This document shows, piece after piece, positions 5,996 through 36,500 of a DNA stretch of 64,000 nt; within the stretch, counting starts at the first letter, position 1; every line of letters starts with the position of its first letter. Location: contig CAUJCU010000021.1 of NCBI GenBank assembly GCA_963169745.1, forward strand, positions 1 to 64,000, given 5' to 3'. This DNA comes from Bacteroidota bacterium. GTDB taxonomy: Bacteria > Bacteroidota > Bacteroidia > UBA4408. A model generated the notes under the pieces. It did not search any database and was not told where the DNA came from. It saw nothing but the letters and a program-made list of their open reading frames with translations. The position numbers and the translations under genes are program-made.

Positions 5996-7828
5996 TTGAA
6001 AACCTATTTTAGACTCATAAGCTTTGCCAGACCTTTAGGAAAGTATTTTCCTGAGTATCTTATATATACATTGTTGGGAGTAGTTTTCGGATTAATCAAC
6101 TTTACCTTGTTTATTCCGTTGCTCAATTTGCTGTTTACTTCATATAACCCCAACGAATTACCAACTACCTTACCGGCCTTTAGTTTAACAATTGATTATT
6201 TTAAAAACGTATTCAACTATTACTTTTATCAAATTATTCAACAAGGTGGAAAAACAGCGGCTTTACAATATGTATGCTGGGTTATTTTCTTTTCTGTATT
6301 GTTAAGTAATTTATTTAAGTTTCTGTCTCAACGAGTGCTCACTTCGGTACGAACCAAAGTTGTTAAAAATATTCGCGAGGCGGTTTTTAATAAAATAACC
6401 GAAAGTGATATCCGCTTTTTTTACAACCATCGAAAAGGGGATTTAATTTCTACCTTGAGTAATGATGTTCACGAAGTTGAAAACTCCGTTGTAAGCTCTC
6501 TTCAGGTAATCATTAGGGAGCCTTTTATGCTTATCGGATTTTTTATTTTGCTGTTTAGTATGTCGGCACGCTTAACTTTATTTACACTCTTGTTGCTCCC
6601 CCTTTCTTTTCTAATTATAGCGCAAATTACCAAACGATTAAAAAGAGATGCCTTGCGAAGTCAAGACTTATTGGGCTATATTATGGGAACTATTGAAGAA
6701 ACCATTTCGGGTATTCGCATTGTAAAGGCTTTTAGTGGGGAGGAATACACTAAAAAGAAATTCGATATTCAAAATAATAAGTACCGGGAGTTGTTGAAAG
6801 CTGTAGTTAACAAGCGTGAATTAGCTTCGCCTTTAAGTGAATTTATGGGGGTAACGGTTTTAACTATTATGTTTTTTTATGGAGGCAGTTTGGTGCTTGA
6901 GAACTCAGGCGATTTAACGGCAAGTGAGTTTATTACCTATATTATTCTTTATTCGCAGGTATTGGTGCCGGCCAAAAACATTTCTACCGCTGTAACAAAT
7001 ATTCAAAAAGGATTAGTTTCGGGACAAAGATTGTTGAATTTAATAGATACAAAAATTGAAATAGTAGAAAAAGAGAATGCTCTTATTTTAAAAGATTTTT
7101 GGCATCAGATTGATTTTAAAGAGGTATCTTTTTCTCACGGAAGCTTTCAGGTTCTTAAGGCAATTAATTTGCGTATTGAAAAAGGGAAAACCGTTGCTTT
7201 AGTTGGCCCTTCAGGAGCGGGTAAAAGCACATTGGCCGATATGGTTCCTCGTTTTTATGATGTAAGTGAGGGGGCCATACTGATTGACGGAGTAAATATT
7301 AAAGAAGTAAGCCTTAAAAGCCTACGCCAATTAATGGGAACAGTTACTCAGGAGTCAATATTGTTTAATGACTCAGTAGCGGCTAATATTGCTTATGGCG
7401 AAGAAAATCCGGATATGAATAAAGTAAAAGAAGCCGCCTGTATTGCCAATGCTCATGAGTTTATTATGGCTTTGGCCGAAGGATACCAAACGAATATTGG
7501 CGACCGAGGTGGAAAGCTTTCAGGTGGTCAACGCCAGCGTTTATCTATAGCCCGTGCCGTTTATAAAAATCCTCCAATTTTAATTTTAGATGAAGCTACC
7601 TCTGCTTTGGATACAGAGTCAGAAAAAATGGTACAAGAAGCTTTAACCAACCTTATGAAAAATCGTACCACCCTTGTAATTGCTCATCGCTTAAGCACTA
7701 TTCAGCATGCTGATGAAATAATTGTTTTAGATCAAGGTCATATTGTAGAACAAGGTACTCACAGCTCCTTAATGAATGCACGCGGCTTATATCATAAACT
7801 CTGCCAAATGCAAGCGTTTAACAGTTAA
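5996..7828 (+). CDS. ABC exporter, fused permease and ATPase (MsbA-like)
   Basis: A half-transporter of 610 residues that works as a homodimer in the inner membrane to export lipids, drugs or peptides using ATP. Residues ~1-330 contain the six-helix ABC transmembrane domain. The nucleotide-binding domain follows, with Walker A GPSGAGKST at 404-412, the signature LSGGQ at 508-512, Walker B ILILDEATSALD just after, and the switch histidine in VIAHRLST. The start is TTG at 5996: no ATG is available near it, and the protein aligns from MKTYFRLIS as expected for this family. It stands alone, convergent with the methyltransferase gene. MsbA-type lipid A flipping is possible but the substrate is inference. 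Confidence 0.93.
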   Translation: MKTYFRLISFARPLGKYFPEYLIYTLLGVVFGLINFTLFIPLLNLLFTSYNPNELPTTLPAFSLTIDYFKNVFNYYFYQIIQQGGKTAALQYVCWVIFFSVLLSNLFKFLSQRVLTSVRTKVVKNIREAVFNKITESDIRFFYNHRKGDLISTLSNDVHEVENSVVSSLQVIIREPFMLIGFFILLFSMSARLTLFTLLLLPLSFLIIAQITKRLKRDALRSQDLLGYIMGTIEETISGIRIVKAFSGEEYTKKKFDIQNNKYRELLKAVVNKRELASPLSEFMGVTVLTIMFFYGGSLVLENSGDLTASEFITYIILYSQVLVPAKNISTAVTNIQKGLVSGQRLLNLIDTKIEIVEKENALILKDFWHQIDFKEVSFSHGSFQVLKAINLRIEKGKTVALVGPSGAGKSTLADMVPRFYDVSEGAILIDGVNIKEVSLKSLRQLMGTVTQESILFNDSVAANIAYGEENPDMNKVKEAACIANAHEFIMALAEGYQTNIGDRGGKLSGGQRQRLSIARAVYKNPPILILDEATSALDTESEKMVQEALTNLMKNRTTLVIAHRLSTIQHADEIIVLDQGHIVEQGTHSSLMNARGLYHKLCQMQAFNS

Positions 7829-27997: not shown

Positions 27998-28384
27998 ATG
28001 ACAGGTAAAAACATGAAAAATGACATTGTGAATAAAAAGGATTTAAAGCAACTGGTAATAAGATTTTATGGAAAACTTAGGGAAGATAAAATTTTAGGAC
28101 ACTTTTTTAATCATGTAACACCGGTTAATTGGAATGAACATATTAAGATGATGTATGGTTTTTGGGAAAACGTTTTATTTTTTACCGGTGATTATTCAGG
28201 AGACCCCATGAGAAAACATGTTGCTATTCATAAAAAACATCCCTTTTCACTAAGTGATTTTACACATTGGAACAAACTCTTTATTGAAACGGTTGACGAA
28301 ATGTATAAAGGCGAAAATGCTGAAATAATAAAACAACGAGCCCAAAGTATAAGCACCATTATGCAGATAAAACTTTTCAAATAG
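27998..28384 (+). CDS. Group III truncated haemoglobin
   Basis: A 128-residue 2-over-2 globin of the group III (Cgb/trHbP) kind, which binds haem and oxygen or nitric oxide. Diagnostic parts are LVIRFYGKLREDKILGHFF (helix B-C, with Tyr at B10), WNEHIKMMYGFWENVLFF (helix E-F, with Trp), RKHVAIHKKHPFSLSDFTHW (proximal His in the F helix region) and LFIETVDEMYKG. Helix A is short as expected for the class. The start at 27998 or five codons later (28013) are both possible; the conserved part starts after either. A role in nitric-oxide or oxygen handling is inferred from the family. It sits just left of the accessory island. Confidence 0.88.
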   Translation: MTGKNMKNDIVNKKDLKQLVIRFYGKLREDKILGHFFNHVTPVNWNEHIKMMYGFWENVLFFTGDYSGDPMRKHVAIHKKHPFSLSDFTHWNKLFIETVDEMYKGENAEIIKQRAQSISTIMQIKLFK

Positions 28385-28405
28385 TTTAACTACAAAGATT
28401 TCGGA

Positions 28406-28486
28406 ATGGTTATACAAAAAGCAGAAATAGAACAAATTGAAACTTCCCTTCATAACCCTTCCGAATTAAAAAACATACTTTCTTAA
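28406..28486 (+). other. Very short open frame after the haemoglobin gene
   Basis: A 26-codon frame (MVIQKAEIEQIETSLHNP...) starts 21 bases after the haemoglobin stop and ends before a promoter box at 28510. It is too short to recognise. It could be the intact beginning of a gene truncated by later rearrangement at the island edge, or chance. Confidence 0.25.
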
Positions 28487-28509
28487 AGTATTTACATTTC
28501 AAGCTTTTG

Positions 28510-28517
28510 TACCTTTG
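28510..28517 (+). promoter_or_regulatory. Promoter -7 box before BRO-like remnant
   Basis: TACCTTTG matches TAnnTTTG. It would start transcription near 28521, ahead of the broken antirepressor-like gene. Confidence 0.4.
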
Positions 28518-28537
28518 CATTTAAACGGTTAAATTAG

Positions 28538-28651
28538 GTGGGTAAAGAAAACATCATAAAAATGTTGGAGCAAAAACAAGTTCGTACCCATTGTGACGAA
28601 GAAAAAAATCTTAGATATTTTTGGGTTATTGATGTAATTGACTTATTATGA
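28538..28651 (+). pseudogene. Remnant of BRO/phage antirepressor-like gene
   Basis: A 37-codon frame from GTG at 28538 (or ATG at 28562) to TGA at 28649-28651 reads KENIIKMLEQKQVRTHCDEE and then RYFWVIDVIDLL. This resembles the N-terminus of BRO-N/antirepressor-type proteins of prophages, in which a KxxRxxWDEExxxWYFSVVDVV block is usual. The protein stops where the domain should continue, and the next frame (28667-28750) has no clear match. It is called a truncated remnant. It marks the left side of the accessory island. The family call is from a short block, so confidence is moderate. Confidence 0.45.
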
Positions 28652-28812
28652 AATAGATTGACAGAGATGTTAACGTTATTTAGCACAAAACGAGTCAAAA
28701 AAGAAGAACTAAAGAGCCCGGTTTTACCGCCCACAGAAAGATTTTTTTAGAGCGACACACTTTGGCGTTTCATGCTTCTACTTTTATTGCAGAAATTAGA
28801 AACAAAGAAAGT

Positions 28813-29949
28813 ATGCAAACAAATAATCTAACACTTAGCCCAACAACTGACAGACCTTTTGAACTTGCTAAGACATCCGCAAAAATAAACTTGTCCGAAG
28901 TTTTTGCAGGAAGAAACAGTTCATACTTGAATGAGTTTATGCTGTTTGTTGCTCACTTTAACAGTATTCCTAACTTTATGAATGAAGTAGATATTGACTG
29001 TAAAAAAGCGAATAACTGGTTTGTCGAAAATTACGCATCAGAAGTAAAAGAAAATTATTATAACAAGAGATACTACAATCGTAGTAAGAAAGCTGAACTT
29101 GATGATATTTTTTATTTCCTCTATGAGGATTTAATTGTTGACTTTGATACGAATTGTTCAATAGTTCGTTTTCTATATCGCAAAACCGACCTATCTAAGA
29201 TTGAAGAAATTATTGCGGGCATTCACAAATTCAAAAAAAGAAAACAAAGGCAAAAGCCAGAAATTTCATTGCTTGTAAATGCTATGACAGGCATTGAAAC
29301 AAAATCTTTACAGATTACAAAACCAAGATTGAGCATTGAGGATAACTATAATGAGGACTTCAAGGAAATTCATCAAACAATTTTAAAAAGACTTTCCCGT
29401 AAGAATGACAAAGGTTTGGTTCTGCTACATGGTAAACCAGGAACGGGAAAGACATCATACATCCGATATTTGATTGCTTCCTTAAAAAAGGATGTAATTT
29501 TTTTGCCCCCTAATATGGCAAGTGCCATTACAAACCCAAACCTTATTTCAATTCTTATAGACAATCCCAATTCGATTTTCGTAATAGAAGATGCTGAAAA
29601 CATTGTTGTTGACCGAGAACAAGACGGAGGTTCTCCTGTTTCTGCATTACTGAACATTTCTGATGGATTACTTGCCGATTGTTTGAATGTTCAAGTTATC
29701 TGTTCATTTAATACCGACATTTCAAAAATTGACAATGCCTTAATGAGAAAAGGACGGTTGATTGCAAAGTATGAGTTTAAAGAATTGGAAATAGAAAAGG
29801 CTCAACAACTGTCAAACAAATTGGGCTTTAATACAAACATCAACAAGCCAATGACATTGACATCAATTTATAACCAAGACGAAAAAGATTTTCAACAATC
29901 AAGAAAAAATAATCCAATAGGATTTCAGGCAATAAACAATAACTGGTAA
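28813..29949 (+). CDS. AAA family ATPase, Bcs1-like
   Basis: A 378-residue ATPase. Residues 1-~165 form an N-terminal region of unknown function, rich in charged and aromatic residues (YNKRYYNRSKKAELDDIFYF). The AAA domain starts near 185. Walker A is GKPGTGKT at 207-214, Walker B IFVIEDAEN with Glu259-Asp260, sensor 1 in CSFNTDISKID, and the arginine finger region ALMRKGRLIAKYEF, typical of Bcs1/FtsH-like AAA proteins. The ATG at 28813 is used; an earlier in-frame TTG adds 17 residues without family support. It begins a run of same-strand genes in the island. The gap to the next gene is 45 bases and contains a copy of a 25-base repeat, so whether it is co-transcribed is open. Confidence 0.88.
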   Translation: MQTNNLTLSPTTDRPFELAKTSAKINLSEVFAGRNSSYLNEFMLFVAHFNSIPNFMNEVDIDCKKANNWFVENYASEVKENYYNKRYYNRSKKAELDDIFYFLYEDLIVDFDTNCSIVRFLYRKTDLSKIEEIIAGIHKFKKRKQRQKPEISLLVNAMTGIETKSLQITKPRLSIEDNYNEDFKEIHQTILKRLSRKNDKGLVLLHGKPGTGKTSYIRYLIASLKKDVIFLPPNMASAITNPNLISILIDNPNSIFVIEDAENIVVDREQDGGSPVSALLNISDGLLADCLNVQVICSFNTDISKIDNALMRKGRLIAKYEFKELEIEKAQQLSNKLGFNTNINKPMTLTSIYNQDEKDFQQSRKNNPIGFQAINNNW

Positions 29950-29972
29950 GCCGAAAACTAAACAGAGTAGGC
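29948..29972 (+). repeat. 25-base intergenic repeat, copy 1
   Basis: AAGCCGAAAACTAAACAGAG followed by TAGGC. It overlaps the stop of the AAA ATPase gene and recurs at 36936-36960 with three mismatches, each time about 20 bases before the next ATG. Sequences with similar beginnings (AGCC then ACACACA) follow the stops at 33567 and 35619. Confidence 0.6.
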
Positions 29973-29994
29973 ATAAATTAAAACAAATAAACAA

Positions 29995-30294
29995 ATGATT
30001 TCAGACGTAAGAGAAAAAGGAAGCCTAATTGAGGTTTACGATGCAAACAGCAAAAGAATATCCTACATGAGTGCAGGAAGCAAAGAACTTGTAGGCGTAG
30101 CAAGTAGTTTCTTTGTGATTATCAATAGTTCATTAATTGAAGTATATGATGAAAAATGTAAACGCATTTCATACATGAGCCAAGGAAGTAAAATTGTGAG
30201 AGGTGCAGCAGGCAACACTTTTACGGTTAAAAACGGTAGCCTTATTGAAACCTACGATGAAAAATGTAAAAGAATAAGCTACAAAAATGCATAA
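29995..30294 (+). CDS. Small protein of three 36-residue repeats
   Basis: A 99-residue cytoplasmic protein built from a repeat with a period of exactly 36 residues. The repeats begin at residues 10, 46 and 82, each with SLIE(V/T)YD, then KRISYMS and a GS-rich turn. The third is truncated after 18 residues. The pattern of alternating strand-like segments suggests a small beta-structure, perhaps a beta-solenoid or propeller-like sheet. No signal peptide or catalytic residue is seen. Its stop overlaps the exonuclease ATG by eight bases, so the two are translationally coupled. I do not know its function; in this context it may be a binding or sensor subunit. Confidence 0.75.
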   Translation: MISDVREKGSLIEVYDANSKRISYMSAGSKELVGVASSFFVIINSSLIEVYDEKCKRISYMSQGSKIVRGAAGNTFTVKNGSLIETYDEKCKRISYKNA

Positions 30295-30781
30295 CTCCTA
30301 TACAGCAATAGATTTTGAAACCGCACAAGGCAAGCGTTGGAGCATTTGCCAAGTTGGTTTGGTTCGTGTAGAAAATCAAATTATTACAGAGCAGTTATCA
30401 ATTTTGGTACAACCGCCCGATAATTATTACTGGAATAACTTTATTGATATTCACGGAATTTGCCCCCAACAAACGTCAGATGCACCAACATTTGATAGAG
30501 TTTGGCATCAAATTGAGCCATTCATCAAAAATCAAAATGTTGTTGCTCACAATGGTTTTGGATTTGACTTTCATTGTTTAAATCAGACATTGGAATACTA
30601 TAACATCCCAAACCCAGAATTTACAGGGCATTGCACCTATAGAATTTTTAGGGATAATTTGGCATCGCTTTGTAAACAATATAAAATCAACTTAAATCAT
30701 CATGATGCTTTGAGTGATGCAAGGGCTTGTGCCCAACTTTTTAAAATACACTTATCACAAAATAAAAATGGCAGCAATTAA
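30287..30781 (+). CDS. DEDDh 3'-5' exonuclease (DnaQ-like)
   Basis: A 164-residue exonuclease of the DnaQ/RNase T kind acting on DNA or RNA 3' ends with two metal ions. The four acidic residues are visible as AIDFET (Asp9, Glu11), a central Asp in HNGFGFDFHCL, and HHDALSDARACAQLF with the His and final Asp of the DEDDh class. It is a stand-alone exonuclease domain without a polymerase. Its ATG overlaps the end of the repeat-protein gene, and its end overlaps the DUF262 gene by 14 bases. This tight overlap links it in one operon with both. Confidence 0.88.
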   Translation: MHNSYTAIDFETAQGKRWSICQVGLVRVENQIITEQLSILVQPPDNYYWNNFIDIHGICPQQTSDAPTFDRVWHQIEPFIKNQNVVAHNGFGFDFHCLNQTLEYYNIPNPEFTGHCTYRIFRDNLASLCKQYKINLNHHDALSDARACAQLFKIHLSQNKNGSN

Positions 30782-32645
30782 TTTATTTGAATTATTTAAT
30801 GGGAAAAATTTCCGAATACCTGACTACCAAAGAGGATATGCTTGGGAAGAAAAACAGTTACAGGAGTTGTGGGATGATATTGAAGAAATTCCCGAAGAGA
30901 ACGGAGAGTTAAAAAAACATTACACAGGAACAATTTACTTAGAAGAAATTGCTGCAAATGAGAATGAAAAGTGGCTTTCAGCAGTAAAATTTTATGATGT
31001 TGTTGACGGACAACAACGATTAACTACAATAAGTATTCTCATTTATGAACTTCTCAAATTAGCAGACAGCGGATATAATGGAGAAAGCACAGGGGATTTG
31101 AAAAAAACTTACTTGAGCAAAACAAATTCTTCTGGTAACAGCACAGTTTATAAATTTAGCTATGCACAAACAGACAACAATTACAATTTTCTTTTGCGAA
31201 ATATTTTTGAAAACGGTTCATTTATTCTGAAAGACAATAGTCTAAATCTTTATACGAAGAATTTACTTTTTGCGAAAGAATTTTTTGAAGCAAAACTTCA
31301 AAGTTTAAACCACTCACAGCGAGAAGTAATTTTCAAAAAACTAACTGCTTCATTGCAGTTTGACATCAGAACAATTGAAAAGGACTTAGATGTTCAAGCT
31401 GTTTTTGAAACAATGAATAATAGAGGTAAACCTTTATCAACACTTGAAAAGTTGAAGAACAGGTTAATTTATTTAACCGAAAAATTGACAAGTGAAAAAG
31501 AAGACAAAAAGAATTTGAGAAATAAAATCAATGATGCTTGGGGCAAAATATATTCTTGCTTGGCTCAAAATCCTGATTCGATTTTAGACGAAGACGTTTT
31601 TCTTTCTGCACACTTATCACTATACAGGAAGCCAAAAGAAGCCGTCTTTTCTGAAAAAGTTGCAGAAGAAAAAGTTTTTCAAATGTTCTGTAACAAATCA
31701 GAGAAGTTTGATAAAGACGAAAGCGGAGAGAAAGAACCAAAAGTTACATATAACAAGATTGAAGATTACATAATAAAATTGTCTGAAGCAGCTCCAATCT
31801 GGTATAAGATTCACAACTCCAATTCTCTCATTCTCAAAAAAATCCTTTTACTCAATAGTGGTAAAGAATTGAAGGTATTTCTCCTTGCATTACTACTTGA
31901 AAGCAATGAAGAAAGTTTGCAGTATATATTTTTCAATCTTGAAAAAATAATGTTTAGAAACAGAACACTTTGGTTGTTTGATGAACGGACAGTGGCAACT
32001 TGGGGCAGAGATATTTACTTGAATGAAGATAGTGTTGACGGAATAAACAAGAAAATTGAAGCGCTGATTCAAACTCCAATCGTAAATCAAAATCTTATTC
32101 AGAATATGAATAATTTATTCACTTACGAAAGAGGTGCAAAAGGATTTCACAGGTGGGGAACTCTGAAATATTTTTTATTTGCGTATGAAGAAATGTTGAA
32201 AGAGCAATTCCGAGAGTCGAATGATAAAGTAAGCATTGATGATTACGATACCACTACAATTGAACACATCATTCCTCAACAGTTTTGGGATAATTGGACA
32301 ACAATTGTAAATGATTTTACAACAGGACTTGAAGAAGATGAAATCACAATGGCTCATAAGGTTTTGATAAACACATTAGGCAATTTGACGATTTTAAAAA
32401 ACGGCAAAAATTCTTCATTAGGAAATTTAGGCTGGATGGACAAGCAAAATAGATTTAGCACTGGTTCATACAATGAAATTGACATTAGCAAGAACACCGA
32501 ATGGACAAAAAAGGAAATTTTGCAAAGAGGACTTGCTATGCTTTTGTTTTTAGAGAATAAAATTGACGGATTGAAATTTACAAACGAGGAAAAAAACAAA
32601 ATACTTTTCTATCAGGAAAATGTAATCAAAAAATTCACAGAGTAG
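30768..32645 (+). CDS. DUF262-DUF1524 nuclease (GmrSD-like)
   Basis: A 625-residue fusion of the two domains of GmrS and GmrD. The N-terminal DUF262 region has FRIPDYQRGYAW and the ParB/sulfiredoxin-like motif DGQQRLTT at 80-87, which in characterised members binds or hydrolyses nucleotide. The C-terminal DUF1524 region carries the HNH-type nuclease block IEHIIPQQFWDNW (His500) and LINTLGNLTIL. Related proteins restrict phages with modified DNA (GmrSD, BrxU) or phosphorothioate-linked ones (SspE). The ATG at 30768 is used rather than 18 codons earlier, since the conserved AINLFELFNGKNF starts there. It is four bases before the WYL regulator gene, and overlaps the exonuclease gene. Whether it cuts modified DNA is inference. 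Confidence 0.9.
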   Translation: MAAINLFELFNGKNFRIPDYQRGYAWEEKQLQELWDDIEEIPEENGELKKHYTGTIYLEEIAANENEKWLSAVKFYDVVDGQQRLTTISILIYELLKLADSGYNGESTGDLKKTYLSKTNSSGNSTVYKFSYAQTDNNYNFLLRNIFENGSFILKDNSLNLYTKNLLFAKEFFEAKLQSLNHSQREVIFKKLTASLQFDIRTIEKDLDVQAVFETMNNRGKPLSTLEKLKNRLIYLTEKLTSEKEDKKNLRNKINDAWGKIYSCLAQNPDSILDEDVFLSAHLSLYRKPKEAVFSEKVAEEKVFQMFCNKSEKFDKDESGEKEPKVTYNKIEDYIIKLSEAAPIWYKIHNSNSLILKKILLLNSGKELKVFLLALLLESNEESLQYIFFNLEKIMFRNRTLWLFDERTVATWGRDIYLNEDSVDGINKKIEALIQTPIVNQNLIQNMNNLFTYERGAKGFHRWGTLKYFLFAYEEMLKEQFRESNDKVSIDDYDTTTIEHIIPQQFWDNWTTIVNDFTTGLEEDEITMAHKVLINTLGNLTILKNGKNSSLGNLGWMDKQNRFSTGSYNEIDISKNTEWTKKEILQRGLAMLLFLENKIDGLKFTNEEKNKILFYQENVIKKFTE

Positions 32646-32649
32646 AAAA

Positions 32650-33567
32650 ATGTCAAAACGAGGCTACATATCAAGATACTTGCTAATTCTCAAAAAGTTG
32701 AAAGTGAAACCTTTCTCAACTTATGAGGAATTACAGAGCTATATAGAAAATCAGTTTGACTATCTGCAAATGCAAGACGATAATTTGCAAATAGGTTTTT
32801 CAAAACGAACCTTGCAACGTGATATTAAGGAAATCAGAAACATATTTGGAATTGACATTGAGTATTCAAAATCTCAAAAGGGCTATTTCATCAGCCAAAA
32901 TGAAAATGAAAACATGAATTTTCAAAGAATGATGGAGGCTTTTGATATGTTCAATTCTTTAAACCTTGCACAAGATTTAACACCGTTTATTCATTTAGAA
33001 AAACGCAGACCGCTAGGAACTGAAAATTTATATGGTTTGCTTCATGCAATCAAAAACAGGTTTAAAATCAAATTCACTTATCAGAAATTTTGGGAAGAAG
33101 AATTAAGCCAGCGTTTGGTAGAACCTTACGCTTTAAAGGAGTTTAAAAACCGTTGGTATATCATTGCTAAAGACAGCAAAGACAATAACATTAAAAGTTT
33201 TGCTCTTGACCGATTGACAAATCTTGAAATTACTAACCAAACGTATCAATACCCCGACAATTACAGCATCGAACAAAGTTATCGCTATTGCTTTGGTATT
33301 ATAAGCCCGAATGACGAAGAACCACAAGACATCATATTATCGTTTGCCCCATTTCAAGGCAAATACATCAAAACGTTGCCATTACACGACACTCAACAGG
33401 TTTTGGTGGACAATGACGAAGAAATGAAAATCAAACTAAGACTTTGCTTAACACACGACTTGTTAATGGAGTTACTTTCATTTGGCGACAACATGAAAGT
33501 AATTGAACCCAAATCATTGGCAGACGAAATCAAAGAAGCACATGAAAACGCATACAAACAATATTAG
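32650..33567 (+). CDS. WYL-domain transcriptional regulator
   Basis: A 305-residue regulator. The N-terminal ~90 residues form a winged helix (YISRYLLILKKLKVKPFSTY and FSKRTLQRDIKEIRNIFGIDI). The WYL domain follows at about 130-210 (IKFTYQKFWEEE, VEPYALKEFKNRWYIIAKD), with the family's W/Y/I-type residues, and a C-terminal extension (ELLSFGDNMKVIEP) that closes the fold. Such proteins often control defence operons, for example BrxR and CapW types. It starts only four bases after the DUF262 gene, so it is probably translated from the same mRNA and may sense damage or ligand to control the operon. Confidence 0.9.
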   Translation: MSKRGYISRYLLILKKLKVKPFSTYEELQSYIENQFDYLQMQDDNLQIGFSKRTLQRDIKEIRNIFGIDIEYSKSQKGYFISQNENENMNFQRMMEAFDMFNSLNLAQDLTPFIHLEKRRPLGTENLYGLLHAIKNRFKIKFTYQKFWEEELSQRLVEPYALKEFKNRWYIIAKDSKDNNIKSFALDRLTNLEITNQTYQYPDNYSIEQSYRYCFGIISPNDEEPQDIILSFAPFQGKYIKTLPLHDTQQVLVDNDEEMKIKLRLCLTHDLLMELLSFGDNMKVIEPKSLADEIKEAHENAYKQY

Positions 33568-33606
33568 CCGACACACAAGGTAAGCGCATGCGTCATTTAG
33601 AAATAT

Positions 33607-33640
33607 TTTGCGATTTATACCGAAAAGTGGTACTTTTGGC
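33607..33640 (+). promoter_or_regulatory. abiE promoter with overlapping inverted repeat
   Basis: TTTG at 33607-33610, a 20-base spacer and TACTTTTG at 33631-33638 make a full promoter. Transcription should start near 33642, 13 bases before the abiEi ATG. An inverted repeat, AAAAGT (33623-33628), GGT, ACTTTT (33632-33637), covers the -7 box. It is a likely binding site for the AbiEi antitoxin, which in studied systems represses its own promoter. Confidence 0.6.
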
Positions 33641-33654
33641 AAAAAATATCTTAA

Positions 33655-34479
33655 ATGAGTTCGGACAGTAATTACAACCGTTTAGAATATTGGGTTGAAG
33701 AACAGCAATCTAAAGGCAAGTTGGCGTTCTGTATTGCCGAACTCAAAAAAGGCTTTGCTAATGACAGCGAAACCGCTTTAAAAAGAGCGTTAGACAGGCT
33801 TTCCAAAAAAGAAAAAATCGTTTCCGTTTTCAAAGGTTACTATGTAATTGTTCCGCCACAATATTTCGCAAAAGGCATTTTACCACCTACCCTATTCATT
33901 GACGGATTGATGAAATATTTGGAACGTAATTATTACATCGGACTTTTAAATGCAGCCGCTTTGAACGGTGCAGGACATCAACAACCGCAAGAATATTTTG
34001 TAATAACGGAATATCCCGTTTTGCGACCAACGAACAAACGAGGCATTAAAATCAATTACATCAGTACAAAACAATTATCGCCAGAAACATTACTTGAAAA
34101 AAAGAAAACCGAAACAGGTTACATCAATGTTTCCAATTCGATTTTAACTGCAATAGATTTAATCAATTACGAAAAACGAATTGGCGGTTTAAGTCGGGCA
34201 GTAACAGTAATCAATGAATTGTTAGAAAACATAAAACCAAAAGACATCATACAAGAATTAGTCGCTTACACAAGTGCTACAACCTTACAACGCTTGGGTT
34301 TTATTTTGGAAGAAATTTTAGGAAAACAAGATTTAGCCGACAAACTTTTTTCGCTTTGCAAAAAATCAGAAGTGAAATTTTACACTATTCCATTAAAAGC
34401 ATCGGGCGAAAAAAACAAAGAACAGCTAAACGATAAATGGAAAATTTGGATTAACGCAGAAATTGAATTTGAAGAATGA
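33655..34479 (+). CDS. abiEi: AbiEi-type antitoxin of type IV toxin-antitoxin system
   Basis: A 274-residue antitoxin of the AbiEi family, which has a winged-helix DNA-binding N-terminus and a larger C-terminal antitoxin domain. Here the winged helix is at residues ~10-75 (KLAFCIAELKKGFANDSETALKRALDRLSKKEKI ends with a wing VFKGYYVIVPP); the typical block YIGLLNAAALNGAGHQQPQ follows. A type IV antitoxin does not bind the toxin directly but counters its effect. Four-base overlap with abiEii (ATGA) shows tight coupling. The promoter holds an inverted repeat suitable for autorepression. Assigned from family motifs; experimentally the pair may act in abortive infection. Confidence 0.88.
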   Translation: MSSDSNYNRLEYWVEEQQSKGKLAFCIAELKKGFANDSETALKRALDRLSKKEKIVSVFKGYYVIVPPQYFAKGILPPTLFIDGLMKYLERNYYIGLLNAAALNGAGHQQPQEYFVITEYPVLRPTNKRGIKINYISTKQLSPETLLEKKKTETGYINVSNSILTAIDLINYEKRIGGLSRAVTVINELLENIKPKDIIQELVAYTSATTLQRLGFILEEILGKQDLADKLFSLCKKSEVKFYTIPLKASGEKNKEQLNDKWKIWINAEIEFEE

Positions 34480-35267
34480 TACCTCAAGCATACATAACTG
34501 AATGGAGCAATTTTGTTCCTTGGAAAACAAATGAACAAGTTGAACAAGATTTAATTATTTGCCGTGCATTGACCGAAATTTTCAGCAACAAATTTTTGGC
34601 AGAAAGTTTAGCGTTTAGAGGCGGAACGGCTTTGCACAAATTGTATTTACAGCCACAACCAAGATATTCGGAAGATATTGATTTGGTACAAATTCGGGCA
34701 GAGCCTATAAAAGAAACCATACAGCAACTTCAAAAAGCACTTTCATTTTTAGGAAAATCAAACATAACGCCCAAGAAAGACAACAATACGATTTACTACA
34801 AATTTGAATCGGAATTTCCACCTGTTCAGATTTTAAAACTGAAAGTAGAAACAAATTGCAGAGAGCATTTTTCGGTTTTAGGTTGGGAGAAAAAAGACTT
34901 TGAAGTTTCATCAAGTTATTTTAACGGAAAATGTGCTTTGACAACTTACAAATTAGAAGAATTATTGGGGACAAAATTGCGGGCATTATACCAACGTAGA
35001 AAAGGCAGAGATTTGTTTGACTTGTGGAAAGCCTTAACATCTGCAAAACCCGACAATGATTTGATTTTGAAATGCTACAAAGAATATATGAAGTTTTCAC
35101 TGGACAAACCGATACCAACCCAAAAAGAATTTTTACTAAACATTGAACACAAAAAAACAGACAGCGAATTTTTAGGCGACACAGTTGCTTTACTACGACA
35201 TAGCGAAAACTATAATCAAGACGAAGCGTTTGGAATTGTAACAGAAACACTAATTGAAAAAATGTAA
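34476..35267 (+). CDS. abiEii: AbiEii-type nucleotidyltransferase toxin
   Basis: A 263-residue toxin of the AbiEii/MenT-like nucleotidyltransferase superfamily. The motif FRGGTALHKLY at ~47-57 (GGT at 49-51) and YSEDIDLV with Asp67 and Asp69 are the diagnostic active-site blocks. A later Lys/Leu block (YKLEELLGTKLRALYQRRKGRDLFDLW) is typical too. Relatives add nucleotides to tRNA 3' ends or other targets and stop growth; which target this one uses is unknown. It starts within the stop of abiEi, and its end is five bases before the DUF3024 gene, so the three may be one operon. Confidence 0.88.
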   Translation: MIPQAYITEWSNFVPWKTNEQVEQDLIICRALTEIFSNKFLAESLAFRGGTALHKLYLQPQPRYSEDIDLVQIRAEPIKETIQQLQKALSFLGKSNITPKKDNNTIYYKFESEFPPVQILKLKVETNCREHFSVLGWEKKDFEVSSSYFNGKCALTTYKLEELLGTKLRALYQRRKGRDLFDLWKALTSAKPDNDLILKCYKEYMKFSLDKPIPTQKEFLLNIEHKKTDSEFLGDTVALLRHSENYNQDEAFGIVTETLIEKM

Positions 35268-35271
35268 GAAT

Positions 35272-35619
35272 ATGGCACTTGACAACTTACAAACAGTAGA
35301 TATAATAGAGGCATTAGAAAATCTCGTTGAACGAAAAAGACCACCTGAACACATCAGAACAAAGTTAGACATCGGTTACAAAATTGAAGACCAAGACGTT
35401 TTTATTTTTGAAATCAGACCACAATGGAACAATCCCGAAATAATACGAGAACACCCCATTGCCAAAGCGACTTTTGTAAAGTCAAAAAATCATTGGAAAA
35501 TTTTTTGGATGCGAGCCGACTTAAAATGGTACAGTTACGACCCAATGCCAACGGTTAAAACAATTCGTGAATTTGGAGAAATCGTTGAAAAAGATACACA
35601 TCATTGTTTCTTCGGATAA
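35272..35619 (+). CDS. DUF3024 family protein
   Basis: A 115-residue protein of the DUF3024 type, whose function is not known. The recognised blocks are ALENLVERKRPPEHIRTKLD, FEIRPQWNNPEIIREHPIAK and WKIFWMRADLKWYSYDP. DUF3024 proteins often sit beside toxin-antitoxin and defence genes in accessory regions. The ATG at 35272 comes five bases after the abiEii stop, so it probably shares that transcript. An in-frame TTG six codons earlier inside abiEii is less likely. Confidence 0.8.
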   Translation: MALDNLQTVDIIEALENLVERKRPPEHIRTKLDIGYKIEDQDVFIFEIRPQWNNPEIIREHPIAKATFVKSKNHWKIFWMRADLKWYSYDPMPTVKTIREFGEIVEKDTHHCFFG

Positions 35620-35684
35620 GCCAACACACAGGAATAAGTACATTGTCTTGTCCAGAATAGGGTTACACAAAATAACGTGTAAAA

Positions 35685-35760
35685 ATGAAAAAGACAGATC
35701 AAAAGAAACCACCTAATCCAGCTCTGTTTTATAGTGATGATTTAAAACGAAAAATTGCTC
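35685..35760 (+). pseudogene. Possible IS3-type OrfA N-terminal remnant
   Basis: An open frame from 35685 begins MKKTDQKKPPNPALFYSDDL followed by KRKIAQ, which recalls the YSDEFKRKIVQE start of IS3-family OrfA proteins in Bacteroidota. After that the match is lost, about where the direct repeat copy at 35775 begins; the frame runs on to 35867 without meaning. It is tentative because the matching part is only about 10 residues long. Confidence 0.25.
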
Positions 35761-35774
35761 AAAGAGCTTGCTCA

Positions 35775-35943
35775 TTATTTTCTCGTTCTAAGAAGCCTTT
35801 TTGCGACATTTTACTTCCCCAAAAAATTTACTCTTCCTCTAAAATAACTCTCACTTTAAGTGCTTGAAATCGGATTTATTTGCTTAGTTTAGCAAAACAA
35901 TGGATGAGAAAATTAAGTTATTAGGCGAACTGCCGTTAGTCAG
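35775..35943 (+). repeat. ~168-bp direct repeat, copy 1 (left of GNAT gene)
   Basis: This stretch is matched at 36735-36901, roughly 85% by eye. The shared core includes CCCCAAAAAATTTACTC, AAGTGCTTGAAATCGGATTT and a final TTAGTCAG. The two copies are about 960 bases apart and bracket the acetyltransferase gene. In this copy only, a short frame from ATG at 35900 (MDEKIKLLGELPLVRALSNP) runs to 35989, into the start of the acetyltransferase gene. Confidence 0.75.
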
Positions 35944-35975
35944 AGCCTTATCGAACCCCAAAGTAAGAGAAGAAA

Positions 35976-36500
35976 ATGACAGAATTTAGAATTGACAAAA
36001 TAACGCTTGATGATATTGACCAATTACAAAAAATTGGCAGACAAACTTTCTATGAAACTTTTTCGACAGGAAATACTGAAGAAAATATGGCGAAATATTT
36101 AGAAGAAGGATTTTCTACCGAGAAATTGACAACTGAACTTAACGATAAAAATGCAGCTTTTTATTTTGCGATACTTCACCCAAATGTAATCGGTTACTTG
36201 AAACTAAACTTTGGACAATCGCAAACTGAACTTCAAGACGACAAAGGGCTTGAAATAGAGAGAATTTATGTTTTGAAAGACTTCCACGGAAAAAGTGTTG
36301 GACAACTACTGTATAACAAAGCAATTGAAGTCGCTAAACAAAAAAAATCCGACTATGTTTGGTTAGGTGTTTGGGAAGAAAATCCAGGAGCGATAAACTT
36401 TTATAAGAAAAACGGTTTTATAGAGTTTGACAAACACATTTTCAAGTTAGGCGAAGACAAGCAGACAGACATAATGATGAAACTTAAACTGAAAAACTAA
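35976..36500 (+). CDS. GNAT family N-acetyltransferase
   Basis: A 174-residue acetyltransferase using acetyl-CoA to modify an amino group on a small molecule or protein. The fold is clear from RQTFYETFSTGNTEENM near the N-terminus, the strand IGYLKLNFGQSQ, and motif A IERIYVLKDFHGKSVGQLLY with the acetyl-CoA phosphate loop (DFHGKSVG). It is followed by DYVWLGVWEENPGAINFYKK and NGFIEF. The start ATG at 35976 follows within 33 bases of the repeat copy 1. Gene order puts it between two ~168-bp direct repeats, so it may have come as a discrete mobile segment. Its substrate is unknown; resistance to an antibiotic or toxin is possible but not shown. Confidence 0.88.
   Translation: MTEFRIDKITLDDIDQLQKIGRQTFYETFSTGNTEENMAKYLEEGFSTEKLTTELNDKNAAFYFAILHPNVIGYLKLNFGQSQTELQDDKGLEIERIYVLKDFHGKSVGQLLYNKAIEVAKQKKSDYVWLGVWEENPGAINFYKKNGFIEFDKHIFKLGEDKQTDIMMKLKLKN

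Follow-up and report, generated by a model that had tools for sequence, protein, structure and literature searches.

A defence-type gene block with an exchangeable nuclease and small protein in a Bacteroidota genome

We have analyzed a 64,000 nucleotide stretch from a Bacteroidota bacterium of the UBA4408 lineage (assembly GCA_963169745.1, contig CAUJCU010000021.1, positions 1 to 64,000), which we call the window. Five adjacent genes of the window code for an AAA ATPase, a small protein with three 36-residue repeats, a DEDDh exonuclease, a GmrSD-family enzyme with DUF262 and DUF1524 domains and a WYL regulator. The same five-gene order is found in another genome of the same genus. The AAA, DEDDh and WYL genes are conserved between both copies, while the small protein and the nuclease have been exchanged precisely at their gene borders. 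We moderately favour the interpretation that these genes make up one transcription-unit-like defence block, in which a conserved chassis (AAA, DEDDh and WYL) carries an exchangeable cassette (small protein and GmrSD), and that the block would act against phages by restriction, through the mechanism proposed below.

The same-genus copy and the exchange of two genes

All five genes are on the same strand and tightly packed. The AAA gene is separated from the repeat gene by a 45-base gap, the repeat gene overlaps the DEDDh gene by 8 bases, the DEDDh gene overlaps the GmrSD gene by 14 bases, and only 4 bases lie between the GmrSD and WYL genes. A previous sequence-only reading of this DNA had described these positions, overlaps and gaps, and all of them are found in their places. 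It had staked the proposed operon on the genes being found together in other genomes, and they do recur. The second copy (locus L214, contig C19 of genome G003) contains, in the same order and strand, genes for an AAA protein (378 amino acids), a protein of 127 amino acids, a DEDDh exonuclease (170), a GmrSD enzyme (608) and a WYL protein (305). The membership of the AAA gene had been left uncertain; we include it in the block because it keeps its position at the head of this copy, although it is not exclusive to the block.

The identity between both copies is 72% for AAA, 81% for DEDDh and 82% for WYL; the repeat protein and the GmrSD of the window gave no match in the same-genus genome. Nonsynonymous and synonymous differences (pN/pS) are 0.161/0.74 for AAA, 0.114/0.58 for DEDDh and 0.096/0.73 for WYL: The three genes are under strong purifying selection. 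On the other hand, the 127 amino acid protein has no similarity to the repeat protein of the window, and the two GmrSD enzymes can only be aligned at the DUF262 core (33% of 87 amino acids) and at the HNH end. Pfam confirms both domains in the second enzyme, which by this alignment belongs to another subfamily.

The DNA comparison places the exchange with precision. Homology is limited to 28752–29894 (corresponding to L214 6969–8111, 73%), 30292–30773 and 32649–33518, with ends at or near gene borders. The first of these regions starts with the leader before the AAA gene, the second covers nearly the whole DEDDh gene, and the third starts one base before the WYL start codon. The only other DNA match between L214 and the window is a stretch of 135 bases from the 5' region of AbiEi, so the block occupies a different site there, still in one piece but with its middle exchanged. 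A fixed conserved operon of five genes, as first supposed, must be rejected, since the nuclease and the small protein vary. When sites were compared within the family no clean empty site was found, the genes flanking the block in the window are not adjacent in G003. The coordinates of the block and its neighbours are given in Table 1. The leader is a candidate operator or promoter-proximal element, which may have a regulatory role.

Table 1. Coordinates of the block and of the neighbouring genes in the window.
Feature	Position	Strand	Remarks
Leader before the AAA gene	28752–28812	+	First ~20 bases (GCGACACAnnnTTGGCGTT) kept in the same-genus copy L214
AAA ATPase (378 aa)	28813–29949	+	Head of block; conserved chassis gene
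99 aa protein, three 36-residue repeats	29995–30294	+	Exchangeable gene
DEDDh 3'-5' exonuclease (164 aa)	30287–30781	+	Conserved chassis gene
Putative single-chain GmrSD-family DUF262-DUF1524 enzyme (625 aa)	30768–32645	+	Exchangeable gene
WYL-WCX transcriptional regulator (305 aa)	32650–33567	+	Conserved chassis gene; last of block
AbiEi	33655–34479		Downstream of WYL
AbiEii	34476–35267		Downstream of AbiEi
DUF3024 protein	35272–35619		Directly after AbiE; PADLOC candidate PDC-S43, full length, 160 bits

The AbiE pair is a separate unit. We have considered it as a member of the block and rejected this, it is absent downstream of the block in L214. A truncated AbiEi start and its upstream region are found there at 6479–6613 (minus strand), conserved with window positions 33595–33729, inverted 5' of the AAA gene and running into stops. 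AbiE is thus near both copies of the block, on opposite sides. Between WYL and AbiEi, the sequence TTTG-N20-TACTTTTG (33607–33638) resembles a Bacteroidota promoter for AbiE, in a region kept in L214. We have rejected such motifs as proof of separate units and keep them only as a hint, because they are no commoner in the window than expected by chance. The AT skew across the block and AbiE (28001–36000) is 0.12–0.21, above most of the window, which fits acquired DNA read on one strand.

The proteins of the block

The two kinds of nuclease and the WYL regulator recognized by the sequence-only reading are borne out by their Pfam domains and motifs. The exonuclease has an RNase_T domain (PF00929, 63.4 bits) and its D-E-D-H-D motifs are intact (DFE, GFDFH and HDALSD). 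The other nuclease contains GmrSD_N (DUF262, PF03235, 124.1 bits, residues 7–233), with DGQQR at 80–84, and GmrSD_C (DUF1524, PF07510, 58.9 bits, residues 455–592), with the HNH residues H500 (EHI), N539 (GN) and N548 (KN). Both GmrSD halves are combined in one chain, so that by its domains the protein is a Type IV restriction enzyme of a kind already known. Its best PADLOC models correspond to HEC-06 (142 bits, residues 10–587 against 19–552 of a 569-residue model), followed by Orf5 models with up to 127 bits. Sequence comparison with solved structures gave two weak matches, SspE and a DUF262 protein. A scan of 84,980 species genomes gave 18 clear relatives with 45–82% identity, as well as one partial match of 29 residues. 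WYL, DEDDh or AAA genes are near the GmrSD relative in four of these loci (L022, L025, L031 and L033), and WYL only in L036. No GmrSD relative was found in plasmids at E 1e-60.

The regulator has WYL (PF13280, 57.2 bits) and WCX (PF25583, 38.9 bits) domains, both above the cut-off, and a helix-turn-helix match (HTH_11, 16.2 bits) below it. Among solved structures, those of DriD and PafBC are most closely related to it; the former are chains named WYL or DeoR-family protein, which we take to be DriD. PafBC uses a pair of arginines in each of its WYL domains to bind single-stranded DNA (PMC11804915). Judging by the spacing in the alignment, the RLDR motif of the DriD chains would correspond to this pair. 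The motif is ALDR in the window, and across the clade the position of the first arginine is occupied by A or G, in rare cases by S or P, therefore sensing of single-stranded DNA cannot be assumed. It is plausible that the protein senses a nucleic-acid-like ligand.

The AAA domain (PF00004, 46.2 bits) is in the C-terminal half of the ATPase. The best solved relative is mitochondrial BCS1, with a weak match (E 1.6e-5), so the protein is only tentatively placed in a Bcs1/CDC48-like family. AAA relatives are found in 19 of 390 Bacteroidota genomes, including that of the window, and WYL genes are near them in G000, G149, G153, G157, G088 and G371. At loci of G256, G096 and G068 the AAA relatives have in-frame stop codons, as if they were decaying or free to be lost. 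A relative with 46% identity is found at 7629–8753 of L213, on a 232-kb viral contig (IMGVR_UViG_3300030329_004647) whose size is typical of jumbo phages. Scans of viral contigs with the repeat protein, WYL, DEDDh and GmrSD gave no relatives, only AAA has one: We have rejected a phage or prophage origin for the block.

The 36-residue repeat reported previously is clear at the DNA level, as three copies with a spacing of 108 nucleotides, and in self-alignment (z about 38–41 against shuffles). The 99 amino acid protein matches no Pfam family above the cut-off. AlphaFold2 single-sequence models differ in quality, the best has a predicted local distance difference test (pLDDT) score of 92 and the other four have 72, 42, 40 and 37. 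In the best model each repeat has four strands, and its best Foldseek matches are beta-propellers with template modelling scores of about 0.6, including a three-bladed fragment which assembles into a nine-bladed ring. The protein is thus predicted to form three beta-propeller-like blades.

Similar small proteins are found next to related genes elsewhere. A protein with 50% identity to the repeat protein is directly upstream of another GmrSD gene (L138). A Cys-rich protein made of two repeats of about 40 residues accompanies such genes at four loci: In L163 it is encoded upstream of DEDDh, in L164 it is placed between WYL and DUF262, in L122 it comes before the PDDEXK-AAA-DEDDh-WYL genes, and in the Myroides plasmid NZ_CP037428 it lies 60 bases ahead of a DUF262 gene. 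In L037, a BNR-like protein with three repeats is two genes upstream of GmrSD; its structural model is unusable (pLDDT 50). Small open reading frames with tandem repeats, which come from three sequence families, are over-represented immediately before DUF262 or DEDDh genes, 5/26 against 8/465 elsewhere (p 2.7e-4), with a background formed by the fetched loci, a small sample drawn for other purposes. The Myroides plasmid adds one more case to this count. Apart from these cases, an unannotated protein with 36-residue repeats like those in the window is found at L202 3002–3208, on the 4.3-kb Komagataeibacter plasmid NC_016900. A secreted-looking protein annotated as "5-fold beta-flower protein", with 34-residue repeats, is found at L189 2383–2796, 5 kb from a WYL-DEDDh-DUF262-DUF262 set.

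Related arrangements and known systems

The more distant ARRANGEMENTS in Bacteroidota are reshuffled versions of the gene set. WYL-DEDDh-DUF262-DUF262 is found in the Prevotella sp. E2-28 plasmid NZ_CP091789 and in a Bacteroidetes metagenome-assembled genome (L025). The Chryseobacterium balustinum plasmid NZ_CP033935 has DEDDh-DUF262-DUF262-305 aa-AAA-77 aa-WYL, with a different AAA protein which weakly matches the profile of the AAA protein in the window. Two Hymenobacter plasmids present WYL-DUF262-DUF262 and WYL-DUF262, and a third one WYL-DEDDh. Other combinations are PDDEXK_4-AAA-DEDDh-WYL in L122, where the PD-(D/E)XK gene is upstream, GmrSD-AAA-WYL in L031, and AAA-WYL in L216, which belongs to the same family as the window genome. 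In a quick tree of DEDDh proteins, the window, L163, L044 (the same as L122) and L025 form one group, all linked to WYL; L189 and L196 are further WYL-linked cases in separate positions. Among 35 WYL loci fetched regardless of DUF262, 8 have a DUF262 gene on the same strand within 3 kb (9 within 5 kb), and 340 kb of control loci, which are not a random sample, contain none. Another family (cluster 6, 413–653 amino acids), which by eye looks DUF2779/Cas4-like, is shared by L031, L123, L124 and L125 near WYL and AAA genes, and is a candidate for a further cassette on the same chassis.

The sequence-only reading knew of no named system with this gene set, and none was found in PADLOC or in the open-access papers searched, which contain no description of it. 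Its new anti-phage operon is only partly upheld: A recurring defence-type block is present, but a wholly new kind of system is not supported, since the nuclease belongs to the GmrSD family and HEC-06 is its best PADLOC match. The nuclease family and its link with WYL are already known. In fact, this link is expected, because genes for WYL regulators of the BrxR family are frequently neighbours of those for Type IV enzymes (PMC9122601). What appears to be undescribed is the chassis with its exchangeable cassette, together with DEDDh as a partner and the small repeat proteins.

The single-chain Type IV enzymes Eco94GmrSD, BrxU and HEC-06 have the same DUF262 with DGQQR and DUF1524 HNH domains in one chain, and are found in defence islands (PMC4619093, PMC11411939). 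The enzyme in the window, in contrast, is one member of a block, alongside DEDDh, AAA, a small protein and WYL, and is itself subject to exchange. TgvAB resembles the pairs of adjacent DUF262 genes in the related loci L025, L163, L164 and L189, that of L025 being TgvAB-like. Nevertheless, TgvAB consists of two genes inside a Type I restriction-modification operon, without DEDDh, AAA or WYL (PMC11411939), and the window has one full-length gene. Islands with BREX, BrxU and BrxR also combine a WYL regulator with a GmrSD enzyme (PMC9122601), but our block ends with WYL, it contains DEDDh and AAA in addition, and no BREX core genes are found by Pfam or PADLOC among the eight proteins of 28813–35619. 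The HTH-WYL-WCX layout is common to PafBC, DriD and the regulator in the window, whose clade differs in its ALDR or GLDR motif; CapW is a further WYL regulator. Menshen, Dazbog and PD-T4-2 contain a DUF262 gene, with partner genes in Menshen and Dazbog; they lack DUF1524 and their partner genes differ (PMC10952713).

Proposed mechanism and alternatives

If the block works as a unit, the WYL protein would keep its expression low and raise it on binding a nucleic-acid-like infection signal, as suggested by regulators of the BrxR, CapW and PafBC type. By analogy with GmrSD, BrxU and TgvAB, the DUF262 domain would recognize modified phage DNA with a nucleoside triphosphate and the DUF1524 HNH domain would cut it. 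The DEDDh exonuclease would then degrade or trim the cut DNA from its 3' ends, and the AAA ATPase may remodel or load the nuclease. The small protein, propeller-like in the window, would be the cognate partner of its nuclease, either a specificity factor or an inhibitor, since a change of nuclease goes together with a change of small protein.

Several observations weigh against such a unit. The exact set of five genes with the GmrSD of the window is only seen in the window, and the order AAA-x-DEDDh-DUF262-WYL in just one further genome, from the same genus, whose small protein is not a repeat protein. Members of the AAA family are also found beside housekeeping genes with no relation to the block, and some of these copies contain stop codons. 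The enrichment of repeat proteins is based on few cases from loci chosen for other reasons. The WYL protein keeps just one of the two arginines with which PafBC binds single-stranded DNA. Most close relatives of the GmrSD enzyme, the closest with 55–82% identity, stand alone in varied surroundings and usually have none of the partner genes; it is therefore an enzyme of a known kind which probably has no need for this neighbourhood and probably cuts DNA without the partners.

These last points lead to a less probable but still tenable explanation: The genes would be neighbours in a defence island with no shared function, a stand-alone HEC-06-like GmrSD that by chance lies between accessory genes sharing one promoter, with AbiE and the DUF3024 candidate behind it. 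PADLOC matches GmrSD, AbiE and DUF3024 as separate items, and HEC-06 and BrxU act alone (PMC11411939). Yet the copy in the window is part of a recurrent block: AAA, DEDDh and WYL have stayed together in L214 while GmrSD was replaced at its borders, and WYL, DEDDh and DUF262 recur as neighbours, in more than one arrangement, in other families.

The position of the small gene immediately ahead of the nuclease module, together with its exchange along with the nuclease and the occurrence of small repeat proteins beside various DUF262 genes, might also suggest abortive infection, similar to a toxin-antitoxin system. The small protein would restrain the nuclease, which would be freed by infection to cut host DNA, with DEDDh and AAA as modulators. 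We consider this improbable: GmrSD enzymes need modified DNA, relatives exist without a small partner, and the repeat gene in the window adjoins DEDDh instead of the nuclease. Even less credible is a role in DNA damage or repair and not in phage defence, in which a WYL-WCX regulator of the PafBC or DriD type would control an exonuclease and an ATPase. DriD and PafBC are indeed the closest solved relatives of the regulator, and DEDDh exonucleases are common repair enzymes, but one of the PafBC arginines has become A or G in nearly the whole clade, a variable restriction enzyme is built into the block and related sets are carried by plasmids.

We thus keep a defence block with a chassis and a cassette as our preferred interpretation. 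A wider proposal, which is rather doubtful, is that this is a general form of immunity in Bacteroidota: A fixed set of WYL, DEDDh and AAA genes would accept interchangeable pairs of nuclease and small protein, and small tandem-repeat proteins, whether propeller-like, Cys-rich and zinc-finger-like or BNR-like, would serve DUF262 nucleases as matched sensors or inhibitors and so make up a new class of specificity factors.

If the block is such a unit, Type IV restriction enzymes are swapped as cassettes within a fixed frame for regulation and processing, which would explain why surveys of nucleases have missed it, and small repeat proteins would be overlooked partners of DUF262 enzymes. Two questions become testable: whether DEDDh, AAA and the small protein alter the range or strength of GmrSD, and whether the frame accepts a foreign cassette.

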